Assembly (NCBI RefSeq): GCF_020640915.1
Contig: NZ_JADWDC010000018.1
Span: 1 to 64,000 of the forward strand
From: Waterburya agarophytonicola KI4
Lineage (GTDB): Bacteria; Cyanobacteriota; Cyanobacteriia; Cyanobacteriales; Xenococcaceae
Direction: 5' to 3'
DNA: 64,000 nt
The first letter of the stretch is position 1; each line of letters begins with the position of its first letter. Below, one piece after another: positions 27,870-42,426 of the stretch. A program made the translations under genes and the position numbers. The notes below the pieces were generated by a model. That model searched no databases. It was not told the DNA's origin and saw only the letters and a list, made by a program, of their open reading frames with translations.

Positions 27870-28167
27870 CTATATATTTAAGATAGTTTCGTCGGGCTGT
27901 AGTTGAGTTAATTGAACGCTACCATTCCATAGTTGTTGTGCTTCGGTTGCATTGTAAGATTCTTGAGAAGAATCAATCATTTTCATGGAGCTAAAATACT
28001 TGCCTGTGGTATTTTCAAGTTCAGGATCTAGTACCAATCTTGCTAAAGCTTGTCCTGCATTCTCTATCGTATTAACATTAGGAACAAAACGAGAAAGTAT
28101 CGGTAAAATATTATGCCAGACAAATTTTGCTGTAATAGTATAATCTTGAGCCAAACCCGATCCTGGC
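27870..28167 (-). pseudogene. 3' part of SDR gene split by the mobile element
   Basis: Reading from the junction (CCA, 28164-28166) the frame gives PGSGLAQDYTITAKFVW and continues to a stop at 27870, ending in LQPDETILNI. This is the C-terminal third of a protochlorophyllide-reductase/retinol-dehydrogenase-like SDR, including the typical TGKYFSSMKMIDSSQESYN segment. The first two thirds of the same protein lie 13.46 kb away at 41,621-42,277. Joining the two at the common GCCA codon context gives ...VFNPGLMPGSGLAQDY..., an in-frame protein of about 316 residues. There is no promoter or sensible start for this half alone. Confidence 0.9.
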
Positions 28168-28185
28168 TTTACGCTTCATGTGGGT
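28164..28185. other. Left attachment site of the element (core and arm)
   Basis: The core TGGC (28164-28167) is followed inside the element by 13 bases and then TGGGTAAA (arm, 28181-28188). The right end has the same arm inverted (TTTACCCA, 41598-41605) 15 bases from its core copy. The host side of this site is the SDR C-terminal coding sequence. Confidence 0.7.
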
Positions 28186-28244
28186 AAAAATAATTTACTA
28201 AAAAACCACCTCCGTTATAGAGATGGCTTCCGTTGAAATTAATA

Positions 28245-28627
28245 TTATTTTTTTTGTTTCTTCAGTTCTTCTTCATGCTGTCTTATTAAATCATTTAAAA
28301 TATCTCTTATAGTCAATACCTATATCCAAATTTATCGGTACACCTGGAAGTCGAGCATAGCTCTTCTTGATTAAGATGCACTTGATAATGAAGAAAGCAA
28401 AAGTCATATGGACAAACTAATGTATGTTGTGGCTATACATCTATGTTATCCTGTACATATTTTATTGTCCAGTGCGAGAGAAAAAACTACCTCCGAAACC
28501 AGTATCCAAGTCTATATCTGGGTTATCTTCAAAACCACCTGTTACTGTATCTATGAGTGTACCCAGAAAAACTCAGAACCAAGCAAGTAGTTGCTGTAGT
28601 AACTGCTAATACTCTGTTCATTTTCAT
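28245..28627 (-). pseudogene. Degenerate small genes at the left end of the element
   Basis: From ATG 28625-28627 the frame reads MKMNRVLAVTTATTCLVLSFS, a plausible signal peptide, but ends at 28529. The next frame continues directly with GTLIDTVTGGFEDNPDIDLD and a glycine-rich end, stopping at 28462-28464. One frameshift would give a small secreted protein of about 54 residues. Further left, two short overlapping frames (one ending YKRYFK, the other IRQHEEELKKQKK at 28245) look like another broken gene. The identity of both is unknown; they may instead be non-coding. Confidence 0.35.
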
Positions 28628-28960
28628 ATGAAATTCCTCACATTATTTACCCTTTTAGGATTCCCAAAACAATGTGAAAACTTTTGTGCTATAACTGTAA
28701 TCTAATTTAGTTGAATCAATAATCAACAAATACTTTCTTAAATAACAAATTGATGTACCAGGAGAGCTTGCTCGACTTCTTTAGCAACGCGCCTCGGTAC
28801 TCCACATCTCTATTCATGAGAACCATTGCAACTCTCATTTTTAGAAAATTTGGTGTGCTCACTTTGCAACGATAAGTTTTACTTATTTTAATTGTTTTTT
28901 TATTCTATCTCACCTTATTATTCGCCCATTCTTCTAATAGTAAACCCAAGGAGTGAACAA

Positions 28961-29149
28961 ATGTTAGCCATAGAACTAAAAAGACCTACCCGTAATAGAG
29001 ACACAAAAGCTGTTGGTTGCAGAATTAAAAACTCTGACCTAAAACCCATCCAGAAAATAGTTGACGAATCATTTAACGGTAATTTCAGCCTACTACTGAG
29101 AACAGCTTTAGACGAATACATCACTAAATTACAGAAAGGTGATTCTTGA
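28961..29149 (+). CDS. Small ribbon-helix-helix-like DNA-binding protein
   Basis: The 62-aa protein contains a strand (AVGCRIKNSD) followed by two helices (LKPIQKIVDESF and FSLLLRTALDEYITKL), the spacing of a MetJ/Arc ribbon-helix-helix fold. The start at 28961 is supported by AAGGAG eight bases upstream; a longer frame from 28892 lacks this. Located first in the plus-strand group with the primase gene, it is a candidate regulator or replication/copy-control protein. No partner can be named. Confidence 0.65.
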   Translation: MLAIELKRPTRNRDTKAVGCRIKNSDLKPIQKIVDESFNGNFSLLLRTALDEYITKLQKGDS

Positions 29150-29165
29150 CTTCATTGACCTGGAT

Positions 29166-29282
29166 ATGTCTCTAAACTCATCCAGCACTCTGATAGGTAG
29201 TGCCAAAAAATTAGTTGAAGTTGGCTACTTCATTTGCTATCAAGCCAAAAAACACAATAGCCCTAGACCCACCACAGTCTAA
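29166..29282 (+). CDS. Very small ORF between the RHH gene and the primase gene
   Basis: A 38-codon frame begins 17 bases after the RHH gene and reads MSLNSSSTLIGSAKKLVEVGYF. It has no recognisable domain and no strong ribosome-binding site. Position within a co-directional group is the only support. Confidence 0.3.
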   Translation: MSLNSSSTLIGSAKKLVEVGYFICYQAKKHNSPRPTTV

Positions 29283-29327
29283 GGCTACCAATAAATTTAA
29301 AACTACTCGCAGAAGTAGATGACGTAA

Positions 29328-32009
29328 ATGATAAATACTACAACTATTGTAGCACAAGAAAAAGAGAATATTAACACTACTGGTAGTGTTGAGCGTACTA
29401 ATAATAACGCCACCGATAGTGTTGTTAGATTTAAACCAGCTACTAAACCACCTCTTGGTACATATACTCCTGATGTCAAAGATTTAGAACAAGAATGCCT
29501 AAAATTCCTAGACCTAATTGGGTATTCTACAGGTGAAGACTTAGAACCTGATGAAGATGCTAGGTTTGTCGAGTTCTTTGCTAGAGCAATTTACAACAAT
29601 ACTGGTGGTGAAGGTGCTATTAATGAAAAAACGGGTAAAAAATACACAGCACTTAACCTAAATAACAACTTAGGTAGTATGGGATTCCCACTACTTAGGG
29701 AACTCCATAAATACCAGTTGCTTGGTTATGACATATTTTTTGTAGTTAATGGACAAGGGAACAAAGCACGAGAGATTAATTTTGGAAAATGTTTCTACTT
29801 TGAAATAGATAAAGACGAAAATGGTGAAACTATTCCATTGGATAAGCAGTATTCTTATGCTCTTAAGTCAATGGGAGGACGTGAGCCTTCTGTTACCTTG
29901 CATACGGGTGGTAAGTCCTTACACTTTTACTACCGATTAGATAGACCTCTACCTAAAAAAGACTGGAAGCCTTTACAGCGTGATTTGATAGACCATATTG
30001 GTTACTCTGACGATGCCATAAAAGATATTTGCCGAGTGATGCGGTTGCCTGGCTTCCACTACAAAGGAACTGAGAACATAAGCAGTATTTACCAGTACTC
30101 TGACAAGTCTTATAGTTATGAAGAGCTTAGAGAGTTTATTCCTCAGAGCAAAAGCAAGAAAACCACTTCTTCTAAAAGTAGAACAAGGTCTTCTTCCACT
30201 TCTTCTTCTTCTAGTCGAACAAATAAGAGAAAAGGGAAGCCACAATTTCAAATTAACAACGGTGACATTGAGGAGTTTGCTAAGAAAGCCTTGAAGGGTA
30301 CTTACTATGAGATGTGGCAAGGTAGACGTAGTGTAAAAGACGGTGAGCAGAATACTAGTCTCTATCAACTAGTATGTGAAATTGTTGGTAATGTTCAAGC
30401 TACTGCGTACTCCGAAGAAGATGGTTATGCTCTTGCCTTAGAATACATGAACTCTTTTGAGAACTTTAACCCCAACGACCCTTGGACTGAAGAACACCTA
30501 AAAGATATGTGGGAGAGAGAGTCGTCACAGAATAAGGAAGGTTTTTATACTTCTGATAAGGATAGCGGTGATAATTACCCTGGAGATGCTGACATACAAA
30601 AATTTTTTCATGAACAAGGTAGCGGTGGTCAAAACCTAATAATGAAAAATTTACTTGGAATGAATTCAAATGAAATTTTTTCTCTGGATGAGCCTGAACT
30701 TAACAAACTAATTCTTGAAAATGACCTAGAGCCAATTAGACATAACATTCTCACTGGCTGTAATGAAATTTTAGGTGAACCACTGGAAATTCCTGTTGCT
30801 TTAAAGCTTTTTGAGGATAAAACAGACTTATTTATTTCTCAGAATAAATTTGCTAGATTTGTTGCTGGTGAAGCCCACGAGAATAGATACAACCCTGTGG
30901 AAGAAAAACTTTTCCACTGTGTGCTTTCTTTTCTAGGTGAGGAAAAATTGGGCGATATGGATTTTATGAGTTCTTTTCCTACTAGATTCCGAGAAAAACT
31001 CAGCAAGTACTACAATAGAGTTGTTCAAAACTACATTGGTTCTAATAAGAACACTTTTCTCGTCAATACAGACGCTAGACTTTTTGATACTGGTATCACT
31101 AAGGATAAACCAGACTCAATTTCTTTAGGGGAAATTTTTAAACCACTGCCTACTCTTACTTCACTAGAAGAATTCCTCAAAAATGTTTTCAATTCAACTG
31201 ACAACTGGGATATTGACTTTGCTAAGAAATTCTTGATTTCTGCTGTTGCTAGAACACTAGACCCAGGATGTAAAAGTGACGATGTATTTATTATTAGAAG
31301 TAACAAACAAGGGTTATTAAAGTCTACATTCTTCAAGACCCTGGCTTTTGATGACTTTTATACTGTAAAAACTGGTAATGATGTAGTCTCTAAGGATGCT
31401 ATTGAGGGTCTTTATAGAGGATGGATTCATGAAATAGACGAGATTGAGAGAGTTACTCGTACTAGAGAGGCACACGATACCAAGTCTTTCATTTCAAAGA
31501 CTCATGATAATTACCGCGCTCCCTATGAGAAACAGTCCATAAACCGTCCTAGACACTGGGTTTTAGTAGGCACTTCCAATGATGACGTACTCTTCATTGA
31601 TTCAGAAAACCGTAGATACAATGTAGTAACCATAGATAAAACTATTGATATTGAGTATGTAAAGAAATACCGTGAGACAGTTTGGGCTATGGCTACCCTT
31701 GCCTATTTACAAGGTGAAAAGTGGTATTACTCTGAGTCTGAAGAGGGTGCTAGGGTTCGTAAAGAACGTAATGAACAGTATAAAGTAGTTGATGATAACT
31801 TAGCTACCTATGCTGAGATGTTATCCAGTACCAGGGCTATTTCTACTACTGAGTTTATTGATTTAATTGCCTGCCAGCGACCCTTCGATAAAATGAACCA
31901 AGTAAAAGTTGGTAAGTTTTTCAAGGAACTTGGTTGGGACAAAAAAAGAATAACCAAAAATGGGGTTAGAACCTGGGTCTATGTTAAACCAGAAGCTAAT
32001 ATCACCTAA
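29328..32009 (+). CDS. Primase-helicase (AEP/prim-pol plus D5/VirE-like helicase)
   Basis: The 893-aa protein is the element's replication protein. Residues about 60-290 look like a primase-polymerase: FYFEIDKDENG (metal-binding acidic motif, about 157), HTGGKSLHFYYRLD (about 194) and ICRVMRLPGFHYKG (about 235). A Ser/Thr/Lys-rich linker follows (280-310). The C-terminal 300 residues match the VirE/D5-like helicase: GLLKSTFFKTLA as Walker A (about 661; the glycines before Lys are reduced compared with GxxGxGKS), GWIHEIDEIERV as Walker B (about 699), ISKTHDNYRAPY and VLVGTSNDD with NRRYNVV. Such proteins open origins and prime DNA synthesis in satellites and plasmids. A candidate origin lies right after the gene. 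Confidence 0.85.
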   Translation: MINTTTIVAQEKENINTTGSVERTNNNATDSVVRFKPATKPPLGTYTPDVKDLEQECLKFLDLIGYSTGEDLEPDEDARFVEFFARAIYNNTGGEGAINEKTGKKYTALNLNNNLGSMGFPLLRELHKYQLLGYDIFFVVNGQGNKAREINFGKCFYFEIDKDENGETIPLDKQYSYALKSMGGREPSVTLHTGGKSLHFYYRLDRPLPKKDWKPLQRDLIDHIGYSDDAIKDICRVMRLPGFHYKGTENISSIYQYSDKSYSYEELREFIPQSKSKKTTSSKSRTRSSSTSSSSSRTNKRKGKPQFQINNGDIEEFAKKALKGTYYEMWQGRRSVKDGEQNTSLYQLVCEIVGNVQATAYSEEDGYALALEYMNSFENFNPNDPWTEEHLKDMWERESSQNKEGFYTSDKDSGDNYPGDADIQKFFHEQGSGGQNLIMKNLLGMNSNEIFSLDEPELNKLILENDLEPIRHNILTGCNEILGEPLEIPVALKLFEDKTDLFISQNKFARFVAGEAHENRYNPVEEKLFHCVLSFLGEEKLGDMDFMSSFPTRFREKLSKYYNRVVQNYIGSNKNTFLVNTDARLFDTGITKDKPDSISLGEIFKPLPTLTSLEEFLKNVFNSTDNWDIDFAKKFLISAVARTLDPGCKSDDVFIIRSNKQGLLKSTFFKTLAFDDFYTVKTGNDVVSKDAIEGLYRGWIHEIDEIERVTRTREAHDTKSFISKTHDNYRAPYEKQSINRPRHWVLVGTSNDDVLFIDSENRRYNVVTIDKTIDIEYVKKYRETVWAMATLAYLQGEKWYYSESEEGARVRKERNEQYKVVDDNLATYAEMLSSTRAISTTEFIDLIACQRPFDKMNQVKVGKFFKELGWDKKRITKNGVRTWVYVKPEANIT

Positions 32010-32033
32010 CTCCTAATTTAAGAGTATTGCCTA

Positions 32034-32064
32034 AAGTGTCCACCTTTTACTTGGACACTTTTTT
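32034..32064 (+). terminator. Rho-independent terminator of the primase gene
   Basis: AAGTGTCCA (32034-32042) and TGGACACTT (32052-32060) form a 9-bp perfect stem with a 9-base loop, followed by TTTTG. It lies 25 bases after the primase stop codon. The same stem sequence recurs downstream, so this hairpin may also be part of the repeat array described separately. Confidence 0.7.
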
Positions 32065-32419
32065 GTTTTAAATAATCGCTAAAATACTTATGGTGTAAGC
32101 TTTTTAGAGTTTTTGTGTTTTTTAAGTGTCCAGGTTAAAAAAAAAGGTGGACACTTAATGGCAGGCTGTAACTATTGCACAGTATGCTTCGTAGCGATTG
32201 CTGCCCAACTTTTGTCTAGTTTTTCGCAAACAAACTATTTCTCAGCCACTACAGCTACTTCTTACACTACCATTTCTACTACTCTCTCTTAATATATACT
32301 AAATATATTTTGTTTAAGAATGTACCTGGACACTTGGACACTTAACATAAAATCCTTTAATAGATAGGGTTTGAGGGTGTCCAACTTTTAAGATAAAAGA
32401 TAGGCACTAAGTTGGACAC
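32036..32419. repeat. Array of eight TGGACAC heptamers; candidate replication origin
   Basis: TGGACAC or its complement GTGTCCA occurs at 32036, 32052, 32126, 32148, 32327, 32335, 32377 and 32413 (leftmost base of each). Six copies are arranged as three inverted pairs (stems of 9, 11 and 10 bp) and two as a direct tandem with an 8-base period. Between the second and third groups lies an AT-rich stretch with TTAATATATACTAAATATAT (about 32,290-32,309). No gene is visible in 32,010-32,544. Iterons flanking an AT-rich segment next to a primase-helicase gene is the usual origin layout in phage satellites. The pairs could also be only terminators. Confidence 0.6.
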
Positions 32420-32544
32420 CTTTTATATTGAGTGTTTTTTGAGTAGGAAGAGGAGAAGCTAATGGTTTGACAGAAGAAGATTATTTGTAGCGGAGTTAGA
32501 AGAGTACTAAAGACATCCACTAGATTTAAGATTAGTGATGAAAA

Positions 32545-33105
32545 TTACCTATTGCTCATAGCATCTTGCTGATACTTGTAAAAAAGCTCGTATTCTCTAA
32601 GACAATTTTCACCTGACATTCCAACTTCACAAGCATCTACTGCTCTAGCTCCTTGTTCTGATGCTTTTTTTAGGTAGTATTGGTTATAACCTTTCTCCTT
32701 TAGTAATAGGAGTCCTGTAGCTTTCCAAGCGAGGTCTGTGTGTATCTTCGTGGATATCTCCAGAGTTACGCGATTGTACTTAGCTCTCTTCCTTTTCTCT
32801 TCCCTTTTTGATGCCTCTTTAGCTTTTATTTCTTGGCGAATTCTTTTTCTCTCAGCAGCTTTATCTGCTTTTGCTTGCTCTCTTGCTCTTTCACTTTCCT
32901 CGACTACTTTGGCTACTCGTTCAATATCTCTTATTATTGCTTCTTCTTTTGTTTCTTCTGTTCTTTGGGAAGCCAATTGACGTGCTTGTTGTCTGTACTC
33001 TTCTGAGCTTTTATTTGCAGCGTTAATTCCGTAAGCTATTGCTGCGCCTGACATTGCTACAATACCGAAGGATGCGAGTAAATTTGTTTTTAATTTTTTA
33101 TTCAT
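32545..33105 (-). CDS. Unknown protein with N-terminal membrane helix and long charged coiled coil
   Basis: The 186-aa protein starts MNKKLKTNLLASFGIVAMSGAAIAYGI, a membrane anchor or signal peptide. Residues about 30-115 are almost entirely Glu, Lys, Arg, Ala and Gln and should form a coiled coil. The C-terminal 70 residues are more globular with two cysteines (DACEVGMSGENCLREYE), perhaps a disulfide outside the membrane. I do not recognise the family. It is transcribed against the primase gene and divergent from the small-gene cluster that starts at 33,419. A role at the envelope (for example superinfection control) is possible but not shown. Confidence 0.6.
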   Translation of the reverse strand: MNKKLKTNLLASFGIVAMSGAAIAYGINAANKSSEEYRQQARQLASQRTEETKEEAIIRDIERVAKVVEESERAREQAKADKAAERKRIRQEIKAKEASKREEKRKRAKYNRVTLEISTKIHTDLAWKATGLLLLKEKGYNQYYLKKASEQGARAVDACEVGMSGENCLREYELFYKYQQDAMSNR

Positions 33106-33418
33106 TTCTTTAGCTCATTTGCTTGTTAAGTCTCTATTTTGCTCTTGTTGAACTACATCCTTAGTGACTTCACACCCGCCCCTTATTGGTTATTCCTATG
33201 GTAAGAACCTTGTGGAGTCCATAACCGTGATGCAAAACACAGGGGGGAAGTGAGGTAAAGAACTTGGAGACTTTGTAGAAAGAGTATAGGTAATGACTGT
33301 TATTTACATAAACACTGCAACTCTAGAACGTCATCACTAAAAATTCTAGGATAGCTCTCATTGGGTGATTCCTAGAATGAACACCCAAAAAAAAAGTAGT
33401 AATAATTGGAGATATCAA
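33106..33418. promoter_or_regulatory. Divergent intergenic region inside the element
   Basis: This 313-base stretch separates the minus-strand coiled-coil gene from the plus-strand small-gene cluster and must hold promoters for both. It contains a short inverted similarity, CTAGAA/TTCTAG (about 33,322-33,378), but no motif that I can identify. No gene is seen. Confidence 0.4.
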
Positions 33419-33577
33419 ATGTCAATAAATACAATAGATAAACCTACTACTATCAATACATTCAACCCAAATGACCTAACCATAAAGAATTTGCCTCATG
33501 GTGGTTATGTCATCGAGGAGTATGCCACAGAAGATGTACTTGAATTAATCATGTCAATCATCAAACGAGATTGTTAG
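33419..33577 (+). CDS. Small unknown protein of the element
   Basis: The 52-aa protein begins MSINTIDKPTTINTF. The start is decided by a GGAG seven bases upstream of ATG 33419; a longer frame from 33365 has no such site. The C-terminal half (HGGYVIEEYATEDVLELIMSII) should be a strand and a helix. No family is recognised. It is the first of about five co-directional small genes. Confidence 0.55.
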   Translation: MSINTIDKPTTINTFNPNDLTIKNLPHGGYVIEEYATEDVLELIMSIIKRDC

Positions 33578-33618
33578 ACGCTCATTTCTTAAGTGACTAT
33601 AAGAAATGGACTGTCACA

Positions 33619-33855
33619 ATGAGTAAAAGAAGAAGGAAAGCATTACCAATAACTATTTATTTGGAGACTTGGTTAAAGGTAATGGCACGTAAAAAAGGTG
33701 AAGAAAAGGGATTAACTTTAAGTAGTTACATTAGAGAGTTAATTAGAAAAGATTTAGACTTATCTAAAGACTATGACCCTATGAAAATTATTGTTCGTCA
33801 ATTAGAAAATGGTACTAAACTTTACGATGTGGAGTTCGCTAGAGATGAGAAGTAG
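33619..33855 (+). CDS. Ribbon-helix-helix-like protein
   Basis: The 78-aa protein has KALPITIYLETWLKVMARKKGEEKGLTLSSYIRELIRKDL: one strand followed by two helices with SSYIREL, the usual second helix of CopG/Arc proteins. A start at ATG 33619 (MSKRRRK) is preferred over 33571 because the extra residues are unlike the family. Its stop overlaps the next gene by 11 bases, implying coupled translation. Likely a transcriptional regulator of the element. Confidence 0.65.
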   Translation: MSKRRRKALPITIYLETWLKVMARKKGEEKGLTLSSYIRELIRKDLDLSKDYDPMKIIVRQLENGTKLYDVEFARDEK

Positions 33856-34225
33856 TGCTATCTACGTAGCTGACACTAGGGTAACTCCATTTTCTAATTT
33901 GTTAGAGCGTTGTATCCAGGGTACTCCCGAAGAGCAGGATAGACCTATGGTGGTGACTGGCATGGTTGAAAACTCTGGGAGTCAGGGAACTACATTCAGC
34001 CATATCCTCATGCTGAACATCTTGCAACCTGATAGAAGCTGGAAATTTTTCCTGTTTGGAATGAACACAGGCAATAGTTTTGATTATCGCCTAATAAACC
34101 AATTTCAAAAAAAGAGTAGAAAATGGTTGTCACTAAGATTTGACAAGAAATGGCTTAGATTCAACTTAATTGATGATGATATTGATGTCCTAGAGGATTT
34201 TAATCGCTATAGGAGTAGTATCTAA
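33845..34225 (+). CDS. Unknown protein of the element
   Basis: The 126-aa protein starts MRSSAIYVADTRVTPFSNLLE at ATG 33845, inside the end of the preceding gene, and its TAA stop shares one base with the next ATG (TAATG at 34223-34227). These overlaps indicate a tightly coupled operon. The sequence has no recognisable domain; the last third is basic and aromatic followed by an acidic stretch (NLIDDDIDVLEDF). Confidence 0.6.
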   Translation: MRSSAIYVADTRVTPFSNLLERCIQGTPEEQDRPMVVTGMVENSGSQGTTFSHILMLNILQPDRSWKFFLFGMNTGNSFDYRLINQFQKKSRKWLSLRFDKKWLRFNLIDDDIDVLEDFNRYRSSI

Positions 34226-34779
34226 TGTTAACTCAAATTGAAACCAGCAACTATCTTTTTTGCCATAATTCCTTACTGAGTAATACCGTAATAGACGTTG
34301 CCTTAGAACTAGAAAAGGAATACTCAGGAAGAATCATTGATTACAAGGTAAGATTGGGAAATATCCATATAATCAATGATTCATTGGAAGATACCATCGT
34401 ATCTAACTTTAAGAGTCGGCTTGTGGCTAGGATTCTCAAGAGAGATTATTTTCAAGACGGAATACTACTAATCTCTAACCGCGAGACTGCTAAACATATT
34501 ATCCAAAAAAACAATGGTGCATTCAGGGATAAGGTACTGGCACTTCAGGAGAAAAATGAATGGTACACACTAGCTGGTAGGAATAAATTAGAGTATCTAC
34601 TTCAAAAGTGTGAGTTATCGAAAGCAGATAGAGCCAAAATAACTGCTTTCATTAAGCTAGAAGGTTTTCAATTTAAAGCACTAATAGGCTTAAGTCATAT
34701 TCTTCCTTGGTTCATTTCCAGAATGAACAATAATGCTGCTTATGGGGAAATGCTTAAGAAACAACCTCGTTGGTTTTAA
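34225..34779 (+). CDS. Unknown protein of the element
   Basis: The 184-aa protein reads MLTQIETSNYLFCHNSLLSN and is soluble, mixed alpha/beta in appearance, with a lysine-rich C-terminus. It is translationally coupled to the gene before it (TAATG). I do not recognise it. By position in a satellite-like element it could be an accessory or helper-interference gene; this is speculation from context. Confidence 0.6.
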   Translation: MLTQIETSNYLFCHNSLLSNTVIDVALELEKEYSGRIIDYKVRLGNIHIINDSLEDTIVSNFKSRLVARILKRDYFQDGILLISNRETAKHIIQKNNGAFRDKVLALQEKNEWYTLAGRNKLEYLLQKCELSKADRAKITAFIKLEGFQFKALIGLSHILPWFISRMNNNAAYGEMLKKQPRWF

Positions 34780-34837
34780 CACTCAAACCTTCTATGAACA
34801 CATCAGGACAAACTTATTTAAGTATTTAATTAAACTC

Positions 34838-35011
34838 ATGATACATCGGAACAGTATTCGCCAGGCTAGGCTAAATGGAGCTAAGGCTAGAAAGAAGAAG
34901 AAAAATGTTTCAAAGGTAACTATTTACGAAGAAATTAACAGACCTGGTAGTATGCCTGCCAAGCACCTACGTTCATTTCGAGCATTAGACCGTTACCGCA
35001 AACCCCGATAA
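34838..35011 (+). CDS. Small basic unknown protein
   Basis: The C-terminal 57 codons (MIHRNSIRQARLNGAKARKKKKN...) are strongly basic and suggest nucleic-acid binding. The frame is open further upstream to ATG 34733, which would overlap the preceding gene by 47 bases; the true start is uncertain. It ends 58 bases from the convergent terminase gene. Confidence 0.4.
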   Translation: MIHRNSIRQARLNGAKARKKKKNVSKVTIYEEINRPGSMPAKHLRSFRALDRYRKPR

Positions 35012-35069
35012 GTTTTTGTTGCAAGGTTGTTGCTTGGTGCAATAAATATTAATAGCATGCATCAGTACA

Positions 35070-36545
35070 TCAAAGTCCGTACTTGGAAATCCCTTGGCAT
35101 AACATAGCAAGGCTCATGGGGATGTCGTCATTAACACTAGAGCTACCATCTATCTTAAAGTTCAGAAATTCTCTGGTGAATTGCTTATAACCTTTCATTC
35201 CCGACCATACTTTCAATTTACCAGTCTCGGCTAAGAATCGAATCCTTGATAGAAGCTCTACCTTGTTGTTACGAGTGGTGTTGATGCCCTCAGTCTCAGG
35301 TACTAGGTTATTACGGATAATTTCATCAAGATAGATACAACCCATAGAGTTCTTCTCAATCCCAATGTAAAAGGGTTCTTCATGTAGTCCTATCACTTCA
35401 CCAATGGAGAACATGGCAAGCTCTAGAGTACCTTTGTTCATCCTCAACATATCGTGAAGGACATAATAAGTATTGTTGGTTATTGCGTTATAGCATTGGC
35501 TAACAATCGTCAGTACCATGTAATCATTGCCCGTTAAACCTGAGCAATCTAGACCATAGAATTTTAGCCCATAATCAATATCAGATGGTAATTCATCAAT
35601 CAGCATACTGTTTAGAACATCAGCTTTAAAGAAGACTTCCGAGCTACTTGTAAAAGACAAATTAAATTCTCTTTGGATAGTCTCATCATCTAAACTAAGT
35701 TGTTGTTTCATAGTGCCAAGAAACCCTAGTTCAGATTCTTGCTCTACTTTTAGGCATCTAGGGTTAGCCCTCCAATGGAGATACACCGAACCCCATCCTG
35801 TGTTGTTGTTGAAAAATGTTATAAATGGTGTTTCTTGCTGATTGACTATCCTTGTACTTAACTCTTCAGGGTCTTCTGGTGTATGTTGCTGGAGTAGCTT
35901 ACAATGCCAGTCTTCCTTAGTATTTGGTGTAGAGATAGCCCAGAACCTACCATTAGTAGTTGTCAGGGTAGGAGCAGCAGCAGCATAGATAGCCTCCATA
36001 TTAGGATTAAAGGCTATTTCATCACCTACTAGAATATCTACCGAATACCCACGTAAGGCATCGACAGAAGAAGGTCTGAAGATTAGCTGACCACCATTCT
36101 GAACTCTTATGTTGAGTAAGGACTGACTTTCTAATCTAATGTATCCAGCGTTTTCGATGTCAGTGAGAATGTCCCTGATGTCCTGAGCCACTTTTGAAGC
36201 ATCGCGTTGACTAAGGCTAATCCAAGCCCCAACAAATCCATTCTTAGTACAGGCTAGATAAGCCAGTATTATGCTTGTAAGCGTGGTGATGGCTAATTGT
36301 CTACCCTTGTTAATTACCGCGCCTCTGAGAGAATCCTGAAGCAAGTAATCAGTAAGCTCTATCTGGTAGTCAAAAATCACCTCTGAGAACTTAACTTTGC
36401 TAGAACCTGCTTTAATATAAACTAAATCACAGAACCCTAGAAATGTGTCAGGGAGACGCTTCAAACCATCAGAAGTCTTATTGAGTAATGCTTCTTTTTC
36501 TCGAAGTAGTTTAACCAGCCTGGATTGTTGAGCTAAACTAGGCAT
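35070..36545 (-). CDS. Terminase large subunit-like ATPase/nuclease
   Basis: The protein (491 aa from ATG 36545) has a terminase ATPase core: NKGRQLAITT as an adenine/P-loop region (about residue 80-90), VDILVGDEIAF as Walker B with catalytic Glu (about 173), and WAISTPN as the coupling motif. The C-terminal nuclease has acidic residues in FYGLDCSGLTGNDYM, YIGIEKNSMG and DDIPMSLAM, the RNase H-like pattern. The P-loop lacks the usual GKT lysine, but a lysine just before GRQ could serve, as in other deviant terminases. Length is normal. The start overlaps the previous stop by 8 bases. It would package DNA into phage heads, although the element encodes no head. Confidence 0.8.
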   Translation of the reverse strand: MPSLAQQSRLVKLLREKEALLNKTSDGLKRLPDTFLGFCDLVYIKAGSSKVKFSEVIFDYQIELTDYLLQDSLRGAVINKGRQLAITTLTSIILAYLACTKNGFVGAWISLSQRDASKVAQDIRDILTDIENAGYIRLESQSLLNIRVQNGGQLIFRPSSVDALRGYSVDILVGDEIAFNPNMEAIYAAAAPTLTTTNGRFWAISTPNTKEDWHCKLLQQHTPEDPEELSTRIVNQQETPFITFFNNNTGWGSVYLHWRANPRCLKVEQESELGFLGTMKQQLSLDDETIQREFNLSFTSSSEVFFKADVLNSMLIDELPSDIDYGLKFYGLDCSGLTGNDYMVLTIVSQCYNAITNNTYYVLHDMLRMNKGTLELAMFSIGEVIGLHEEPFYIGIEKNSMGCIYLDEIIRNNLVPETEGINTTRNNKVELLSRIRFLAETGKLKVWSGMKGYKQFTREFLNFKIDGSSSVNDDIPMSLAMLCQGISKYGL

Positions 36546-36966
36546 GTGAATCACCTCTACGTACAAGTGATTCAAGACGGGTAATAGCTTCCTGATATTC
36601 TGAGGTGGCTTGGGCTTGAGTTACTGCTTGACAATGCGCTAGTGCTGCTTTGGCTGCTGAAATCCGTTCATGTGATTTTTCTGCTGAATCTGCTAACTCA
36701 AACAAGACTCTTAGAGCCTGAGTCTCATACTGATTCACCATTTTTATTACTTTACTTCTAGAAATTCTAGAGCTATCTCTGATGGTATCGAACCAGTCTT
36801 TAGAGAAATCCTTATACTCTTGACTTATTAACACATCCCGTAAATCGGTAATGGTGATATCTAACGTCTTAGCCATATCATAAGGGTTGATGGCTTTGCT
36901 TCTCATCTCAAACACTTCTGATAGAAATGCTTGGTCTAGTAATTTTTCCTTAATTGTTTTCTTCAT
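36538..36966 (-). CDS. Probable terminase small subunit
   Basis: The 142-aa, mostly helical protein lies immediately upstream of the terminase large subunit and overlaps it by 8 bases. The N-terminal half (INPYDMAKTLDITITDLRDVLI) resembles a helix-turn-helix, as in small terminases that recognise the packaging site. The C-terminal half (RVLFELADSAEKSHERISAAKAAL) would be an oligomerisation helix. Assignment rests on position and shape, not on a recognised motif. Confidence 0.55.
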   Translation of the reverse strand: MKKTIKEKLLDQAFLSEVFEMRSKAINPYDMAKTLDITITDLRDVLISQEYKDFSKDWFDTIRDSSRISRSKVIKMVNQYETQALRVLFELADSAEKSHERISAAKAALAHCQAVTQAQATSEYQEAITRLESLVRRGDSHA

Positions 36967-36984
36967 TTAACAAACTCCTATTAA

Positions 36985-37254
36985 TCAAACTAACGTTTTT
37001 CTATATATACTTACTTGTCTATGTAGACTGCTTTTTGGTACTTCTAATAGCTTCCCCACTTCTCTAACTGAAAAACCTTCTCTCAGTAATTTGTCTGCTT
37101 TAATTACCGTTTCTACTGGTACTTTATTTCTGTACTTACTAGGCGGAATATTCCTGGTTAGCCTATCCCTTAGCGTTGTCCAAGGCATACCCATTTCTAT
37201 TGCCAATGCCCTGATTGACCGCTCTGTTCTAATTAACACATCAAAGTAATTCAT
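36985..37254 (-). CDS. Helix-turn-helix DNA-binding protein
   Basis: The 89-aa protein has two HTH-like segments: IRALAIEMGMPWTTLRDRL near the N-terminus and FSVREVGKLLEVPKSSLHRQV near the C-terminus. It is 18 bases upstream of the probable small terminase gene, in the same direction. An AGGAGG directly abuts the ATG at 37254 with no spacing, so the start might be the GTG five codons later. It may regulate the terminase operon or assist packaging-site recognition. Confidence 0.65.
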   Translation of the reverse strand: MNYFDVLIRTERSIRALAIEMGMPWTTLRDRLTRNIPPSKYRNKVPVETVIKADKLLREGFSVREVGKLLEVPKSSLHRQVSIYRKTLV

Positions 37255-37706
37255 CCTCCTAAGTCCTTGCTACGCCTACTTTCTATATATGGTGGGCGTT
37301 AAGGGACACTCAATTTAGGTTCAGAGGGTCAATTTTTATATTCTGAGTCCCCATTAATTTAACTAACCGCTTTCTGATTAGGAAAATATTAAATTTGCAT
37401 TTTTAGGAGTAATTTGCAGAAGGAGCAGATTAGAGTAAAACTGTACGAGGGTAGGGGGGTCTATCCACCGATGTAAATTTAACCAGTTGATAAATAATCA
37501 GTCTATTCTGTATAGCTTCGGAGAGGCGAACAGATAATTATTCTGTGAAGAATCATTTGTTAGTTCTGATTGCAGATATCACCATAGGCACAAGAAAAGC
37601 ACCACCTTGATAGATAATGCTCATTAAAACTCAAATATTCACGCTCATTAATAAAAAATGAACCACCTGAACCACCTAAACTCTCTAGTCTAAGTAGTAG
37701 GTTTTA
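37255..37706. promoter_or_regulatory. Gene-free region upstream of the HTH-terminase operon
   Basis: About 450 bases with no convincing gene. It should contain the promoter of the HTH-terminase operon reading to the left. A direct repeat of GAACCACCT (about 37,660-37,678) and several GGTTCAG/CTGAACC-like words are visible. A packaging (pac/cos) site or an RNA gene could lie here, but nothing specific can be identified. Confidence 0.35.
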
Positions 37707-37817
37707 TTAACCTTTTTGTTTTGCTAGTTTTAATAGCTGTTCTTCAGAATAATTCACTTCTGACATGAGTTTTACTCTAGAAGAAATAGCTAAACTAGCT
37801 GTCTCAACTTTTTTCAT
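37707..37817 (-). CDS. Small unknown protein with strong ribosome-binding site
   Basis: From ATG 37815-37817 the 36-aa frame reads MKKVETASLAISSRVKLMSE and ends KLAKQKG. GGAGGT lies nine bases upstream, an excellent Shine-Dalgarno, which decides this start over a longer frame from 37898. The product is a short basic/amphipathic peptide of unknown function. Confidence 0.5.
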   Translation of the reverse strand: MKKVETASLAISSRVKLMSEVNYSEEQLLKLAKQKG

Positions 37818-38201
37818 AATTGAAGTACCTCCGTTCTTAGGAGCGCAGTTTAACGACTTGAGCATTTCGGTCATCTTGAGGAGTTGGGAGATAGGCACTT
37901 TAACGCTTATTCCTAATCTCTAGCTGTAGTTTTTCAAGACGTTACATATGAAGTTCTAGGCTTACTCCCTTAGCTCTTGCTAATAGTGATTCAGTGATTC
38001 ACTCCTAAAAAGTGTTCTATCCCCTACTCTATCTGTGGTGACGTTGTAGAAATAAGCTCGCTTGATGTTCTGAAGTCTCATGTTGTTTAGCTTGTGAAGT
38101 GCTTGCTATATAATAATTATAGTTATTAGTAGTATTAATGTAACCAGTAAAAACATCTAACTTTGAGGCTAGGAAATTAATACATAGCCCCTCACTAACT
38201 T
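37818..38201. other. Gene-free stretch inside the element
   Basis: About 380 bases between two minus-strand genes. It includes the ribosome-binding site of the small gene to its left and AT-rich DNA with runs such as TATATAATAATTATAGTTAT (near 38,106). I see no further gene or clear structure. Confidence 0.35.
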
Positions 38202-38753
38202 CTAATTCCTCAACAGATGCTTGATTTCTAAATAGCTGTCTGAATACTCATCAAAGTCTGAACCCCACAGTAACTCAGTTAACCATACTAGCCCTTTGAG
38301 AATCGTCGTAAAGCCTTGGTCAATATAGGGAAGGGTAAATACAACCAAGCTCTTAATAACCACTCCTAGCCTTACTAGAAGCCACCCTGAAGCCATTACA
38401 CTAGCGATAATAACTACAGCTAAAGGATACAGCATAGTTATAGGAGTAGCAGCACTGGGAATTACTCTACCAGTAGTCTCTACAGCGTCATCGCTTGACG
38501 CGATTCCTACAGCTTCTACAGTAGGTGCAATTTGCTCTATTTGTGCTTGTGAGGCTTCAAGTTCTTCAATAGTAATATCAGCCTCTTGAGCCATTACTTC
38601 TTGCTCACCACACTCTACTAGGTAGTCAGTAATGGAATTAATGTATGATAGCTTCTTGCGCTTGTCTCCTTCGATAAGAATATCGTTTGCGAATGCAAAT
38701 GCTTTTAGGTCAGAAAGTGAAGTGGATTGGATTGTTTGTAGAGTAATTGACAT
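38202..38753 (-). CDS. Unknown membrane protein of the element
   Basis: The 183-aa protein starts MSITLQTIQSTSLSDLKAFA, where residues 10-50 resemble a SAP/Rho-N-like helix-extended-helix (SLSDLKAFAFANDILIEGDKRKKLSYINSI, read as a pattern). An acidic linker follows (about 60-95), then two hydrophobic segments (about 105-130 and 133-160), probably membrane-spanning. I do not recognise a family. A nucleic-acid-binding domain joined to a membrane hairpin is unusual. Confidence 0.6.
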   Translation of the reverse strand: MSITLQTIQSTSLSDLKAFAFANDILIEGDKRKKLSYINSITDYLVECGEQEVMAQEADITIEELEASQAQIEQIAPTVEAVGIASSDDAVETTGRVIPSAATPITMLYPLAVVIIASVMASGWLLVRLGVVIKSLVVFTLPYIDQGFTTILKGLVWLTELLWGSDFDEYSDSYLEIKHLLRN

Positions 38754-38921
38754 GATGTAAACCTTTGATTGTAGTGAAGTGGTTTGGTTAAGTTGCAGTT
38801 CGGCTGTGTAGTGCTGCCTTTGCTGCTTATATCTCTATTATGTCACTATGTAGTGCTAATGTCAACAATTAATTTCAATTATTTGGAACATCCATAAATA
38901 GTGATGTAAATTCTTACTGGT

Positions 38922-39383
38922 TTACTTAATCCCCATAGCTAATACTTGTTCCTGTAAGTCCTTGTCACGAGATAGTCTGACTAATGCTTGAGGGTCTGAT
39001 GATTGCCTCCATAGCTCTCCTACTTGAGCATTATCTGTTTTCCAAGTAGAGAACCAGTCTTTTTCACCAGTAGCAATATCTTCACCTAGAACTCTTATAA
39101 GCCTTTGACCCATATAGCTAGAGGTGGGATTCTTATGAGTTCTTAGAATTCTATATACCAAACCCGCTTGAAATTTATTAGCTCGGAGTACTGGTTTAGC
39201 AGGTTTTATTTTTGGCATAGGTGCAGATTTCATTGCCATCTTGAAAGACACAAATCTACAACCAAGACCTTGGATTTTGACTAGAAACACGTGGCGAAAG
39301 ACCTTGTAGTGAGTTACTTGTTCAGGCTTAACGCCATATTTAACAGCTACTTGTTTGGGGTCTGGAATTAATTTAGTTTGCAT
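38922..39383 (-). CDS. Unknown basic protein of the element
   Basis: The 153-aa protein starts MQTKLIPDPKQVAVKYGVKP and is soluble and basic, with no motif I recognise. The C-terminal part (GELWRQSSDPQALVRLSRDKDL) is helical. It is 168 bases upstream of the membrane-protein gene in the same direction. Confidence 0.55.
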   Translation of the reverse strand: MQTKLIPDPKQVAVKYGVKPEQVTHYKVFRHVFLVKIQGLGCRFVSFKMAMKSAPMPKIKPAKPVLRANKFQAGLVYRILRTHKNPTSSYMGQRLIRVLGEDIATGEKDWFSTWKTDNAQVGELWRQSSDPQALVRLSRDKDLQEQVLAMGIK

Positions 39384-39538
39384 TTTCTCAATAGTGAAGG
39401 GTTATTGAGGGAGAGCTATGTATGCAAATGTCTTGAAGAGTTGTGATTTGCTTATATTATCATTATAGCTTAGGGGTGTCACCTTGTCAATAGATAATTT
39501 CAAAGATACTATTTGGGTGGTGCTACTGAGTTTTGAAA

Positions 39539-39697
39539 ATGCCGAGTAACAAGCCTAGATTGTGTGCTAGACCGACAAGGGATGAAGAAGTGAGGATAAG
39601 AAGACTGGCAGATAGCTATGGATTAAGTGTTAGCCAATATTTAATTAGATGTGCGCTAGCTTATCCTCAGTTAATTGAGAAGACTAAGGATTTATAA
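39539..39697 (+). CDS. 52-residue ribbon-helix-helix protein next to the recombinases
   Basis: ATG 39539-39541 opens a 52-codon frame (MPSNKPRLCARPTRDEEVRI) with the RHH pattern: a strand (RLCARPT) followed by helices EEVRIRRLADSYG and SVSQYLIRCALAYP. It ends 6 bases inside the convergent tyrosine-recombinase-like gene. As a small DNA-binding protein close to the integrase module it is a candidate recombination directionality factor or regulator; this is inference from position. Confidence 0.55.
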   Translation: MPSNKPRLCARPTRDEEVRIRRLADSYGLSVSQYLIRCALAYPQLIEKTKDL

Positions 39698-40057
39698 CTC
39701 TGGAATATCAAACCCGTTTTTCTTTGCTGATAAATAGAAGTTAACAATAGTCTCTGTTGAATTACCGCTAATCCTGGCAATGGTTGCTATGTCCTCCCCA
39801 CTTCTAACTAACCTAGTGATGAAAGAATGCCTTAAGGAGTAATTCCTGTACTTTTTCTCAAGCTTGCCATCTATCATTAATCCTTTTACTACAGTGTTCC
39901 AGTATCTTCTTAACGTTCTACTACTGACTGGATATTTCTTCGTCAGTACCTCAAAGGATGCCTTACTGGTATTTGACTTAAGTAGTTCTTGGTATTTCTG
40001 ATAAGCTTCCTGTATTTCTTCTAACGTAAGGGTTCTATGGATAGGTACTTCAGTCAT
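39692..40057 (-). CDS. Truncated tyrosine recombinase-like protein
   Basis: The 121-aa protein ends with a tyrosine-recombinase catalytic tail: YSLRHSFITRLVRSGEDIATIARISG, then ETIVNFYLS with the nucleophilic Tyr near residue 107. The box II Arg is kept (YSLR, with the usual preceding His as Tyr), but the later His/Trp position is Asn (SGNST), and the box I Arg and core N-terminal domain are missing. Full recombinases are about 300 residues. It is either a remnant or a small protein reused as a regulator. It sits 58 bases downstream of the serine recombinase. Confidence 0.7.
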   Translation of the reverse strand: MTEVPIHRTLTLEEIQEAYQKYQELLKSNTSKASFEVLTKKYPVSSRTLRRYWNTVVKGLMIDGKLEKKYRNYSLRHSFITRLVRSGEDIATIARISGNSTETIVNFYLSAKKNGFDIPEL

Positions 40058-40115
40058 CTCGATAGTTTGATGTTTATTTTTTGTATCCTATCTCAATGGG
40101 AATGTCAATATCTTG

Positions 40116-41546
40116 TCACACCTTAAAGGTAAAGGTAGGAACACCATCTCTGATATCAATCCTAGAGATGAACTCAGCAAATAACCTTAACTTTTGGTCA
40201 AAACTAGCGCGCTGCCAAAATTCCATTGTTTGACCAAATTCAGCTAGTTTTTCTCTCTGTGCTTGAGTCTCCAAAATATCCTTAGTATTATCCAGATAGA
40301 GCAACTTCTGTAATTCCTGTTCCTTTTCTCTAATAACACCCTCTAATCCTGGTACTGTCATAGCAGTATTCTTTAATGTCTCAATCTGCCTCTGCAAATC
40401 AGGAACTTCTTTAGGAGTAACGATAACAGGGTCGTCATATACTTTATTAGCAATAACCCTTGCTCTCCTGGTCAGGGCTTCTATAGTCTGGAACTCCAGG
40501 TCATCAGGCGTTAATCCAGAATATCCAACCTGTGAACAACGACATATTTCTTGCCGTAGTTTCCTACGAGTAATTACCTTAGCTGCTTTTGGATTAGCAT
40601 TAGAGCATAGAACATAACGATACTTACCACAGTTTGACTGGACTCTCATCTCTGACTTGCATTCACCACAAAACATAATATTTTTCCAAAGATTACGTCT
40701 CTTCTTATTAGGATTCCAACCTTTTACGGGTCTATTAAGCAGCTTATCTAGGGTAATTAACCTACTACCGAAGACCAAAGGGTCATGTGTACCATAGATA
40801 ATCTCGTCAGTAACTTTGTAATGTAGATTACCTCTGATTTCCTGCCTCCTCAAAAATCTCCTTATACCCGATGCTTCAGTAGGGTATTTTAAGTGTCTTA
40901 CCTTAGTATCTGTAGTACCATATTTCTCTAACATTTGATGAATAGTACCTCTATGAGAATGAGTCACAATATAAGTATCTACAATATCATTGGCTATCTG
41001 CCAGAATGAGGTTTTAGTATCCATGTAAAAGTCATGATTGGGTACTAGCTTATTACCATCCTTTTCATAAGGAAAGATTGCTCTTTGAGGTATGTGATTC
41101 TCTCTAATATACTTAGCTCCATCAATAGCCCTTCTCTTATTCCTTTCCGCTTCATATTGATAAAAGCTAATCTGTAAATTACCTTGTAAGCCTTCCTCTG
41201 GACTCTCAAATTTATACTCATCAAAGGATAGGTTATATAGCTTAACCCCTGTCTCTAATAGTAGTGCCTTAATCACTTGGAACTCCACCAAATTACGAGT
41301 TAGCCTTGAGAGGTCGTTAGGTAAGAAGATGGCATTAATTTGACCTTTGATAGCCATCTCTTTTACTTTTTTGTAGCTACTCCTTTCTGCCGTAGTACCA
41401 CTACCAATATCATAAAAAATTTGTTCATCCTTAAAGCCTATCTTTCTAGCTCTTGATTGATAATGAGATAACGTAGATGCCCTCTCACTTTGGTTACTAG
41501 TACTTACCCTGTAATAGAAGCAAGCACTATCTAAACTGAATGTCAT
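40116..41546 (-). CDS. Large serine recombinase (integrase/excisase), XisF-like class
   Basis: The 476-aa protein has the resolvase/invertase catalytic domain at its N-terminus: FYYRVSTSNQSERASTL with nucleophile Ser15, and NDLSRLTRNLVEFQ with the conserved arginines. The recombinase domain follows (YIRENHIPQRAIFPY), then a zinc-ribbon (FCGECKSE ... YVLCSNA, about residues 293-325) and a coiled-coil (LQRQIETLK ... EKEQELQKLL). This domain order is that of phage large serine integrases and of XisF, which excises the fdxN element in heterocyst-forming cyanobacteria. It is the last gene before the right junction. Its ATG overlaps the TGA of the chimeric SDR frame (ATGA). Confidence 0.93.
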   Translation of the reverse strand: MTFSLDSACFYYRVSTSNQSERASTLSHYQSRARKIGFKDEQIFYDIGSGTTAERSSYKKVKEMAIKGQINAIFLPNDLSRLTRNLVEFQVIKALLLETGVKLYNLSFDEYKFESPEEGLQGNLQISFYQYEAERNKRRAIDGAKYIRENHIPQRAIFPYEKDGNKLVPNHDFYMDTKTSFWQIANDIVDTYIVTHSHRGTIHQMLEKYGTTDTKVRHLKYPTEASGIRRFLRRQEIRGNLHYKVTDEIIYGTHDPLVFGSRLITLDKLLNRPVKGWNPNKKRRNLWKNIMFCGECKSEMRVQSNCGKYRYVLCSNANPKAAKVITRRKLRQEICRCSQVGYSGLTPDDLEFQTIEALTRRARVIANKVYDDPVIVTPKEVPDLQRQIETLKNTAMTVPGLEGVIREKEQELQKLLYLDNTKDILETQAQREKLAEFGQTMEFWQRASFDQKLRLFAEFISRIDIRDGVPTFTFKV

Positions 41547-42277
41547 CTTAAATCATGTAGTATGTCGTAACTATTGGTACATATAGCATACCATTGATTT
41601 ACCCACCTGTCACTTAATCTTGGCATTAAACCTGGATTAAATACATTAACAGTAATTGACGGTATTTCTTGCTGTTGAAGACGGCGATCTAATTCGTAGG
41701 CACAGAGAATATTACAGAGCTTAGAGGTAGTATAAGCAATTCGTCCAATTTCGCCTATGTTTTTATTTTTGAGCGCAGGATCTTTTTGAGGGTATGCCAT
41801 TAATTGTGGATCGCGAAAATAAGGTTTAGGCATTCCTGTTGTCTTACTAGAATCATGGGTATCACTACTAACCAGAACAATTCTCCCAGGTTTAGCTAGT
41901 TGAGATAAAAGTAGATTGATTAATAAAAAATGCCCTAGATGATTCACGCCAAAGGTAGTATCAAAACCATTTTTAGTATAGGTTTGTCTTTGAATAAACT
42001 GCACTCCTGCATTGCAAATTACGGCATTCAAAGGAGGTAAATCGCGATGGGATAATTCAGTGGCAAAAGTTCTTATAGAAGCGAGATCGGCTAAATCCAA
42101 CTCCATTGCTTCAATGCGATCGCATTTCGTCGCTTCTTTAATCGTAATTACTGCTTGGTTGGCTTTATCTAGATTACGACAAGCCAGAATAATATACCAA
42201 TTCTCATCTCGGGAAATTTCTTGGGCGCAAGCATATCCCAAGCCACTATTTGCTCCAGTAATAACGACTGTCTTCAT
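41543..42277 (-). pseudogene. 5' part of SDR gene split by the element, with a chimeric tail
   Basis: Residues 1-219 are an SDR of the protochlorophyllide-reductase/retinol-dehydrogenase type: VVITGANSGLGYACA, VICNAGVQF, SSDTHDSSK and the catalytic AYTTSKL. The protein then runs over the junction at 41,621 into element DNA for 25 unrelated residues (RLSDRWVNQWYAICTNSYDI...) and stops at 41543. The missing C-terminal 97 residues are at 27,870-28,163. The N-terminal half keeps all catalytic residues, so a shortened enzyme is possible but probably unstable. Excision would restore the gene exactly in frame. Confidence 0.9.
41601..41624. other. Right attachment site of the element (arm and core)
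   Basis: The arm TTTACCCA (41598-41605) is followed by 15 bases and the core TGGC (41621-41624), after which host SDR coding sequence begins. With the left end, the circular form would carry ACCCA-15 bases-TGGC-13 bases-TGGGT, an inverted-arm attP whose centre falls between T and G of the core. Confidence 0.7.
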
Positions 42278-42426
42278 TTTATCTACCTAGTATAAATTAC
42301 GATTGGTTTTTAGATTAATTACAAAATTTATATTATCTATGAAGAAATAGCCACCTTGAATCATTCCACCTCAAGTTAGAATGAGCGATACAGTTCTTTT
42401 TATCGATCTATTTCGGGTAGCTAGTT

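Follow-up and report, generated by a model that had tools for sequence, protein, structure and literature searches.

Elements that carry a serine recombinase and interrupt cyanobacterial genes are already in print (described in PMC4874684), as is the principle that a host promoter drives an integrated integrase gene and another promoter takes over after excision (described in PMC13023037). In the published account of ICEKp1, int is transcribed from the tRNA-asn promoter while the element is integrated and from a 3'-end promoter once it is excised (PMC13023037). The skin element of C. difficile, as presented in PMC5025042, interrupts a protein gene, and its serine recombinase CD1231 is constitutively expressed. 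At the level of translation, a 4-nt overlap is reported to be the commonest arrangement of unidirectional gene pairs (PMC10666635), and termination-reinitiation has been documented at overlaps of the ATGA type (PMC6728339, PMC10666635). Our searches of the open-licence literature gave no publication in which ribosomes pass from a split host gene to an integrase by reinitiation.

We analysed a window of 64,000 nucleotides (Waterburya agarophytonicola KI4, contig NZ_JADWDC010000018.1, positions 1 to 64,000, from a genome of 5.1 Mb) in which an integrated element splits an SDR gene and the SDR frame runs into the start of a serine integrase gene (int). A preliminary description of this locus had proposed a switch in which int is transcribed from the SDR promoter and translated by termination-reinitiation as long as the element is integrated, and is placed behind the left-end DNA in the excised circle. 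That a broken gene might switch on its own repair is a tempting idea, and here it was tested across many related elements. The reading that we favour, with a probability of roughly 0.6, is that of a phage- or satellite-like element with an inward-facing, XisF-related integrase transcribed from its own promoter in the right arm of attP, the overlap with the host frame being incidental or a minor input. The features of the locus are collected in the table.

Table. Features of the interrupted SDR locus, numbered from the first nucleotide of the window.
Feature	Position	Strand	Details
SDR frame including element-derived tail	42277 -> 41543	(-)	244 aa; ends in NPGLMP followed by RLSDRWVNQWYAICTNSYDILHDLR and the stop
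SDR gene, 5' part	41621..42277	(-)	219 codons, core GCCA included; PF00106, E 5.8e-22
SDR gene, 3' part	27870..28163	(-)	97 codons and stop; open frame beyond the core
Foreign codons appended to the SDR frame	41543..41620	(-)	25 codons and stop; element DNA
ATGA, SDR stop overlapping int start	41543..41546	(-)	ORF coordinates
XisF-like large serine integrase (int)	40116..41546	(-)	476 aa; PF00239, E 7.5e-15
Tyrosine-integrase fragment	39692-40057	(-)	121 aa, C-terminal domain; directly downstream of the serine integrase, same strand
NikA-like small protein	39533-39697		inside element
TerL	35070-36575		inside element
VapE-like helicase	29328-32009		inside element
Promoter-like sequence before int	41585..41613	(-)	GTGACA-17-TATGCT, extended TG; predicted
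Terminator-like hairpin and U tract at left end	28201..28231	(-)	reads towards attL; -17 kcal/mol, z -4.7
Integrated element	28164..41620	.	13,457 bp between both cores, from attL/attR positions; TerL, VapE-like helicase and integrase inside
attR core GCCA	41621..41624	(-)	crossover dinucleotide inferred as CA from attR/attL/intact SDR comparison and attP symmetry centre
attL core GCCA	28164..28167	(-)	
attP left arm motif	28180..28188	(-)	TTTACCCAC
attP right arm motif	41598..41606	(-)	GTGGGTAAA; 9-bp inverted partner of the left arm

Joining the host flanks at the shared GCCA gave a 316-aa SDR without a stop codon that is 64-74% identical to eight intact genes of the same genus and family (ten loci were tried and eight, L008-L015, compared; L016 and L017 were left out). 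The intact homologue L008 reads NPGLMPGSGLAQDY, continuing NPGLMP-GSGLAQDY where the SDR of the window enters the element. Because the joined flanks restore an SDR of intact type and L008 diverges at this point, the last 25 codons of the SDR frame are element DNA. Profile searches place the protein as LPOR-like (TIGR01289, 119 bits, below the 331-bit cut-off); a second homologue of the same size is present on contig C135 of this genome and may be its true LPOR. Measured against the same eight genes, the 5' part of the SDR is 63-74% identical and the 3' part 55-76%. The 3' part is thus without clear decay relative to the 5' part, a hint that the SDR gene is still used or that the insertion is recent. 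No second integration at this site was seen among 40 relatives, many of them with distant SDR paralogues only, and the eight close genes that were aligned (L008-L015) were intact; conservation of the ATGA could therefore be followed only across other host genes.

The attL and attR sites were positioned against the intact SDR genes, and attP was rebuilt by joining the element ends at the core. In attL, GCCA is followed by G, the base of the host gene, and in attR by A, which places the exchange within GCCA. The reconstructed attP reads TTTACCCAC-N30-GTGGGTAAA; its 9-bp arms form a perfect inverted repeat with the CA of GCCA at the centre. Symmetric arms around the core are the form expected of the attP of a large serine integrase, and the position of the symmetry centre gives independent support for the crossover. 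At least 60 repeat families came out of a search for att sites as direct repeats, and among the 20 listed none clearly marked the element ends. The window supplies a fully delimited attP/attB pair for an XisF-related large serine integrase. As to the cargo, TerL and the VapE-like helicase are present and no capsid or portal family emerged from the frames covered by the profile searches, a gene content from which the element may be a phage satellite or remnant. No sister element was recovered with the VapE-like and TerL queries, which gave distant relatives only (243 and 60 genomes). Two 35-nt repeats that are 71% identical and have T-run ends (32031-32065 and 32407-32441) flank a small frame within the element.

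The integrase carries an N-terminal PF00239 resolvase domain above the cut-off and matches the phrog_95 integrase profile over residues 8-467 (E 5.4e-31). It reaches 220.3 bits with the XisF profile NF041201 against a cut-off of 375 bits and is thus a relative of XisF, not an equivalog. The PF13408 zinc ribbon scores 23.8 bits, slightly below its cut-off of 25.3, and Cys 293, 296, 314 and 337 are invariant in a six-row alignment that pairs int along its length with five relatives (27-36% identity). The six starts, those of the relatives having been picked by rule, fall in one column, which supports a start at ATG 41546; this is the sole ATG, GTG or TTG in the first 40 codons, and the open frame opens two codons upstream of it. 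The gene begins 74 nt inside the element end, counted from core to ATG, and reads inward. A query with the single integrase gave no match in genome_contigs or viral_contigs, and a query with the alignment gave six loci in viral_contigs (26-28% identity). Phage and plasmid collections held distant relatives only (five Nodularia phage records and two plasmids, all below 60% identity), and the named close XisF-type matches are cyanobacterial. XisH and XisI are partners in the fdxN element; a search of this genome for both gave no match, and neither did the controls. The closest relative of int, L038 (G010, 36%, about 0-based 1433-1491), lies just upstream of a secD-like gene and faces away from it; an interrupted frame was not seen at this neighbour.

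The geometry at the right junction is as the preliminary description had it. From the reading frames and the intact homologues, the SDR frame crosses the attR core (41624-41621), continues for 25 codons into the element and stops in ATGA, its TGA (41545-41543) overlapping the ATG of int (41546-41544). That this ATG is the start of the serine recombinase is likewise upheld by the ORF coordinates, the lack of any other early start codon and the aligned relatives. Of 5000 shuffles of the 74-nt spacer, made with the ATGA fixed and dinucleotides preserved, 8% left the host frame open as far as the ATGA, and ATGA stands at the start of 40 of 90 related genes, whose starts were assigned by rule. The overlap exists, but it is not an improbable one. 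It is also possible, although we hold it to be less probable than the favoured reading, that the overlap has no effect at all, the int start and the SDR stop coinciding by chance next to an unexpressed SDR gene. The 8% in shuffles and the 16 of 19 co-oriented relatives that have no ATGA overlap speak for such a coincidence; the 3' part of the SDR, not clearly decayed and hinting at continued use or a recent insertion, speaks against it.

Several features around the start of int would also suit a combined arrangement, in which a weak promoter of int is supplemented, in the integrated state, by a real dose of read-through from the SDR gene and reinitiation at the ATGA, so that the amount of integrase would in part reflect transcription of the host gene and drop on excision. 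The overlap is exactly 4 nt and the host frame is open up to it, a pattern scan of 41400-42450 gave no minus-strand terminator, and tight coupling at ATGA overlaps is described elsewhere (PMC6728339). No Shine-Dalgarno-like motif was found before the ATG of int, which would fit reinitiation, yet most of the 90 related genes also have none (22 carry one). A search for mRNA structure hiding the int start found none (z +1.0). In all three co-oriented elements with an ATGA frame open from the junction onwards, this frame is the one used by the host gene, which has a probability of 1/27 under random phases; two of the three share the comM site. Among the three phases, the host frame stays open the longest in 9 of 15 elements (5 expected; L076 left out), a count biased upward since junctions set by eye favour the host frame. 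The 8% in shuffles makes coincidence plausible here as well, and the ATGA lies on int in only 3 of 19 co-oriented host genes and 2 of 6 comM insertions. We consider this combination unlikely, albeit worth keeping in mind.

Conservation of the ATGA across other integrations, which the preliminary description had put forward as a check, did not emerge. Relative to the int start, 3 of 19 co-oriented interrupted genes have their stop at +4 (ATGA) and 5 have it no more than 8 nt away; the 19 are not independent (comM 6, nifJ 3, coxA 3, nifH 3, nifE 2, flv3B 1 and the SDR gene). The three ATGA cases are this window and the comM insertions L045 and L106. At the remaining comM insertions the host stop falls at -5 (L089), +28 (L110), -21 (L137) and -11 (L142), so the arrangement is not conserved even at a single attachment site. 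The gene names comM, nifJ, nifE, nifH, coxA, flv3B, moaE and secD were given by eye from the typical sequences of these families, and visual judgement also set the residue at which each host protein ends at its junction. The junction analysis took integrase matches of at least 100 bits. Outside the 19 were left L076 (a 272-nt duplicated spacer), L103 and L114 (ambiguous as to host gene or junction; stops -86 and -90), L052 (possible accessory gene; stop -57), the moaE-like neighbours L139, L140, L145 and L173 (stops -1, +14, +26 and -10; interruption putative), L043 (a 55-aa frame resembling an ATPase gene start cut after the P-loop; stop -33; probably valid), L062 (a 75-aa frame without identity; stop +23), L049 (a 114-aa frame without identity; overlap +4) and L143 (the same gene as L106); other short frames without a recognisable host gene were counted as noise. 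In the six gene pairs tested in PMC10666635, reinitiation was almost lost once the genes stood about 20 nt apart, which suggests that most co-oriented relatives should not be coupled.

Two further observations came from this comparison. In the co-oriented L045 (0-based 511-1492), L106, L089, L110, L137 and L142, the cut in comM/YifB falls close to the peptide HRGVLF or one of its variants, and in L047 and L141 the gene is hit in the opposed orientation. This gene, named by eye, seems to serve repeatedly as an attachment site for XisF-type integrases of cyanobacteria, in both orientations. L060, L064 and L066, among the matches below 100 bits, encode a 430-aa XisF-like protein in ATGA overlap with an apparently complete upstream gene of 125-140 aa; the XisF-like protein may be a relative with a housekeeping role and not the integrase of an element.

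We then turn to the source of int transcription. The promoter-like sequence before int matches the consensus at 9 of 12 positions and has a TG before the -10, with the -35 at 41613 and the -10 ending at 41585. It falls within the interval 41,546-41,620, where a strong separate promoter would count against the switch of the preliminary description, and its match quality is at chance level: four sites of such quality were found in a 1-kb region against 3.9 expected in shuffles. The best score has a p of about 0.05 against 100 shuffles of the 80 nt upstream of int. Taken alone, this predicted promoter is weak evidence. No part of it extends past the crossover into host DNA, and it would therefore stay with int both in the integrated state and in the circle.

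The comparison with relatives carries more information on this point. The 64 upstream regions of XisF-type integrases (63 distinct) contain 32 -10-like hexamers, defined as 5 of 6 matches, at -40 to -31, against 7.0 in shuffles; in a set thinned to 50 dissimilar regions, 29 carry such a hexamer at -46 to -27 against 9.1 +/- 2.9. Within the thinned set, the hexamer is found at -46 to -27 in 12 of 13 integrases that face away from the host gene next to them (2.7 expected; classes were assigned by eye, and this one includes L038, where no interrupted gene was seen) and in 10 of 15 co-oriented ones (2.6 expected). Regions with unclassified neighbours have it in 7 of 22 (4.2 expected), which is not significant, as 26 of 300 shuffles reach 7. 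Away-facing integrases are unable to use the promoter of the host gene, so their hexamers favour a promoter of their own, although part of the enrichment could reflect a motif to which the integrase binds. The -10 of the window itself, TATGCT, matches 4 of 6 positions and fails the 5-of-6 threshold; in the nearest relative, L038, a two-hexamer scan was no better than shuffles (p 0.84), and TATGAT stands at -38. The preponderance of opposed genes has also been described by Hilton et al., who counted 23 xis genes that run in the direction of the interrupted gene and lie at the beginning of the element, and 70 opposed to it, all but one near the element's end, counts that pool serine and tyrosine xis genes (PMC4874684); most xis genes thus cannot use the host gene's promoter. 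Altogether, an integrase of the XisF type seems to have a promoter of its own next to attP in either orientation, and the timing of exit should then be sought in this promoter and a directionality factor, not mainly in host read-through. As a separate observation, L050, L087, L039, L107 and L111, elements in different host genes with junctions placed by eye, all have TGATATGAT 14-27 nt inside the element; this string may represent an extended -10 promoter or else an arm motif of the integrase.

Excision removes the SDR promoter from int, as the preliminary description had stated and as the placement of the junction bears out. Its placing of the left-end DNA behind int in the circle is also right as geometry; as a source of an int promoter this DNA fares worse. 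A terminator-like hairpin, absent from the pattern-scan list, closes the left end and would lie upstream of int in the circle, so left-end transcription probably stops before attP, and the minus-strand promoter-like matches there, at 28471 and beyond the hairpin, are at background number. The left-end DNA is probably a poor promoter source for int in the circle. The proposed switch, with int set by the SDR promoter and reinitiation when integrated and expressed differently from the left-end DNA in the circle, fits the geometry, and a related logic has been demonstrated in ICEKp1 (PMC13023037). We nevertheless regard it as improbable: the promoter-like sequence is kept on the int side of the crossover, the hairpin closes the left end, away-facing relatives have -10-like hexamers at a matching position, and the ATGA is not conserved (3 of 19).

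In the working that we favour, a XisF-related large serine integrase would integrate the element, with int placed just inside one end and transcribed from its own putative promoter in the right arm of attP, in the integrated and circular states alike. As the arm motif (41606-41598) sits between the -35 and the -10, integrase bound at attP or attR may repress its own gene. The SDR frame would meet the ATGA owing to the phase of attB and the short spacer. With an active SDR gene, a fraction of the ribosomes that terminate at the TGA may resume at int, a contribution that we rate as minor or nil. Directionality would presumably come from a separate factor. It is tempting to speculate that the interrupted gene acts as a sensor, SDR expression giving reinitiated integrase that, with a directionality factor, excises the element, restores the SDR gene and thereby cuts its own supply. 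We give this little credence. If true, int would be left after excision with only a weak, self-repressed promoter, and the zero-distance comM junctions L045 and L106 would be further examples.

The closest described systems resemble the locus in part. Like the ATGA pairs of PMC10666635, SDR and int share a 4-nt stop-start overlap, but the upstream frame here is a truncated host gene continued by element DNA and not an operon partner; of the marks of translational coupling, the stop-start overlap is present and conservation in relatives is absent (3 of 19). With ICEKp1, the proposed switch shares a junction-adjacent int, a host promoter in the integrated state and another promoter after excision, as described in PMC13023037. 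That system involves a tRNA gene and transcription (PMC13023037), whereas an interrupted protein frame and reinitiation were proposed here; int also has a predicted promoter of its own, and the left end is closed by a hairpin, which argues against a left-end promoter of the ICEKp1 kind. The skin element likewise has a serine recombinase within an element that splits a protein gene, but in the account of PMC5025042 CD1231 directly precedes the 3' part of sigK and the directionality factor CD1234 restricts excision. The locus also resembles elements of the XisF/fdxN type (PMC4874684), with which it shares a large serine recombinase strongly matching the XisF profile, located at the element edge, reading inward and interrupting a protein gene; here the split gene is restored by joining the flanks. 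It differs from them in an integrase of 220 bits, below the XisF equivalog cut-off of 375, and in its host gene, an LPOR-like SDR that is not among the 22+3 orthologues of Table 1 in PMC4874684. As no nifH match over the cut-off was found in this genome either, the locus appears to be a further case of such an element outside the nitrogen fixers.
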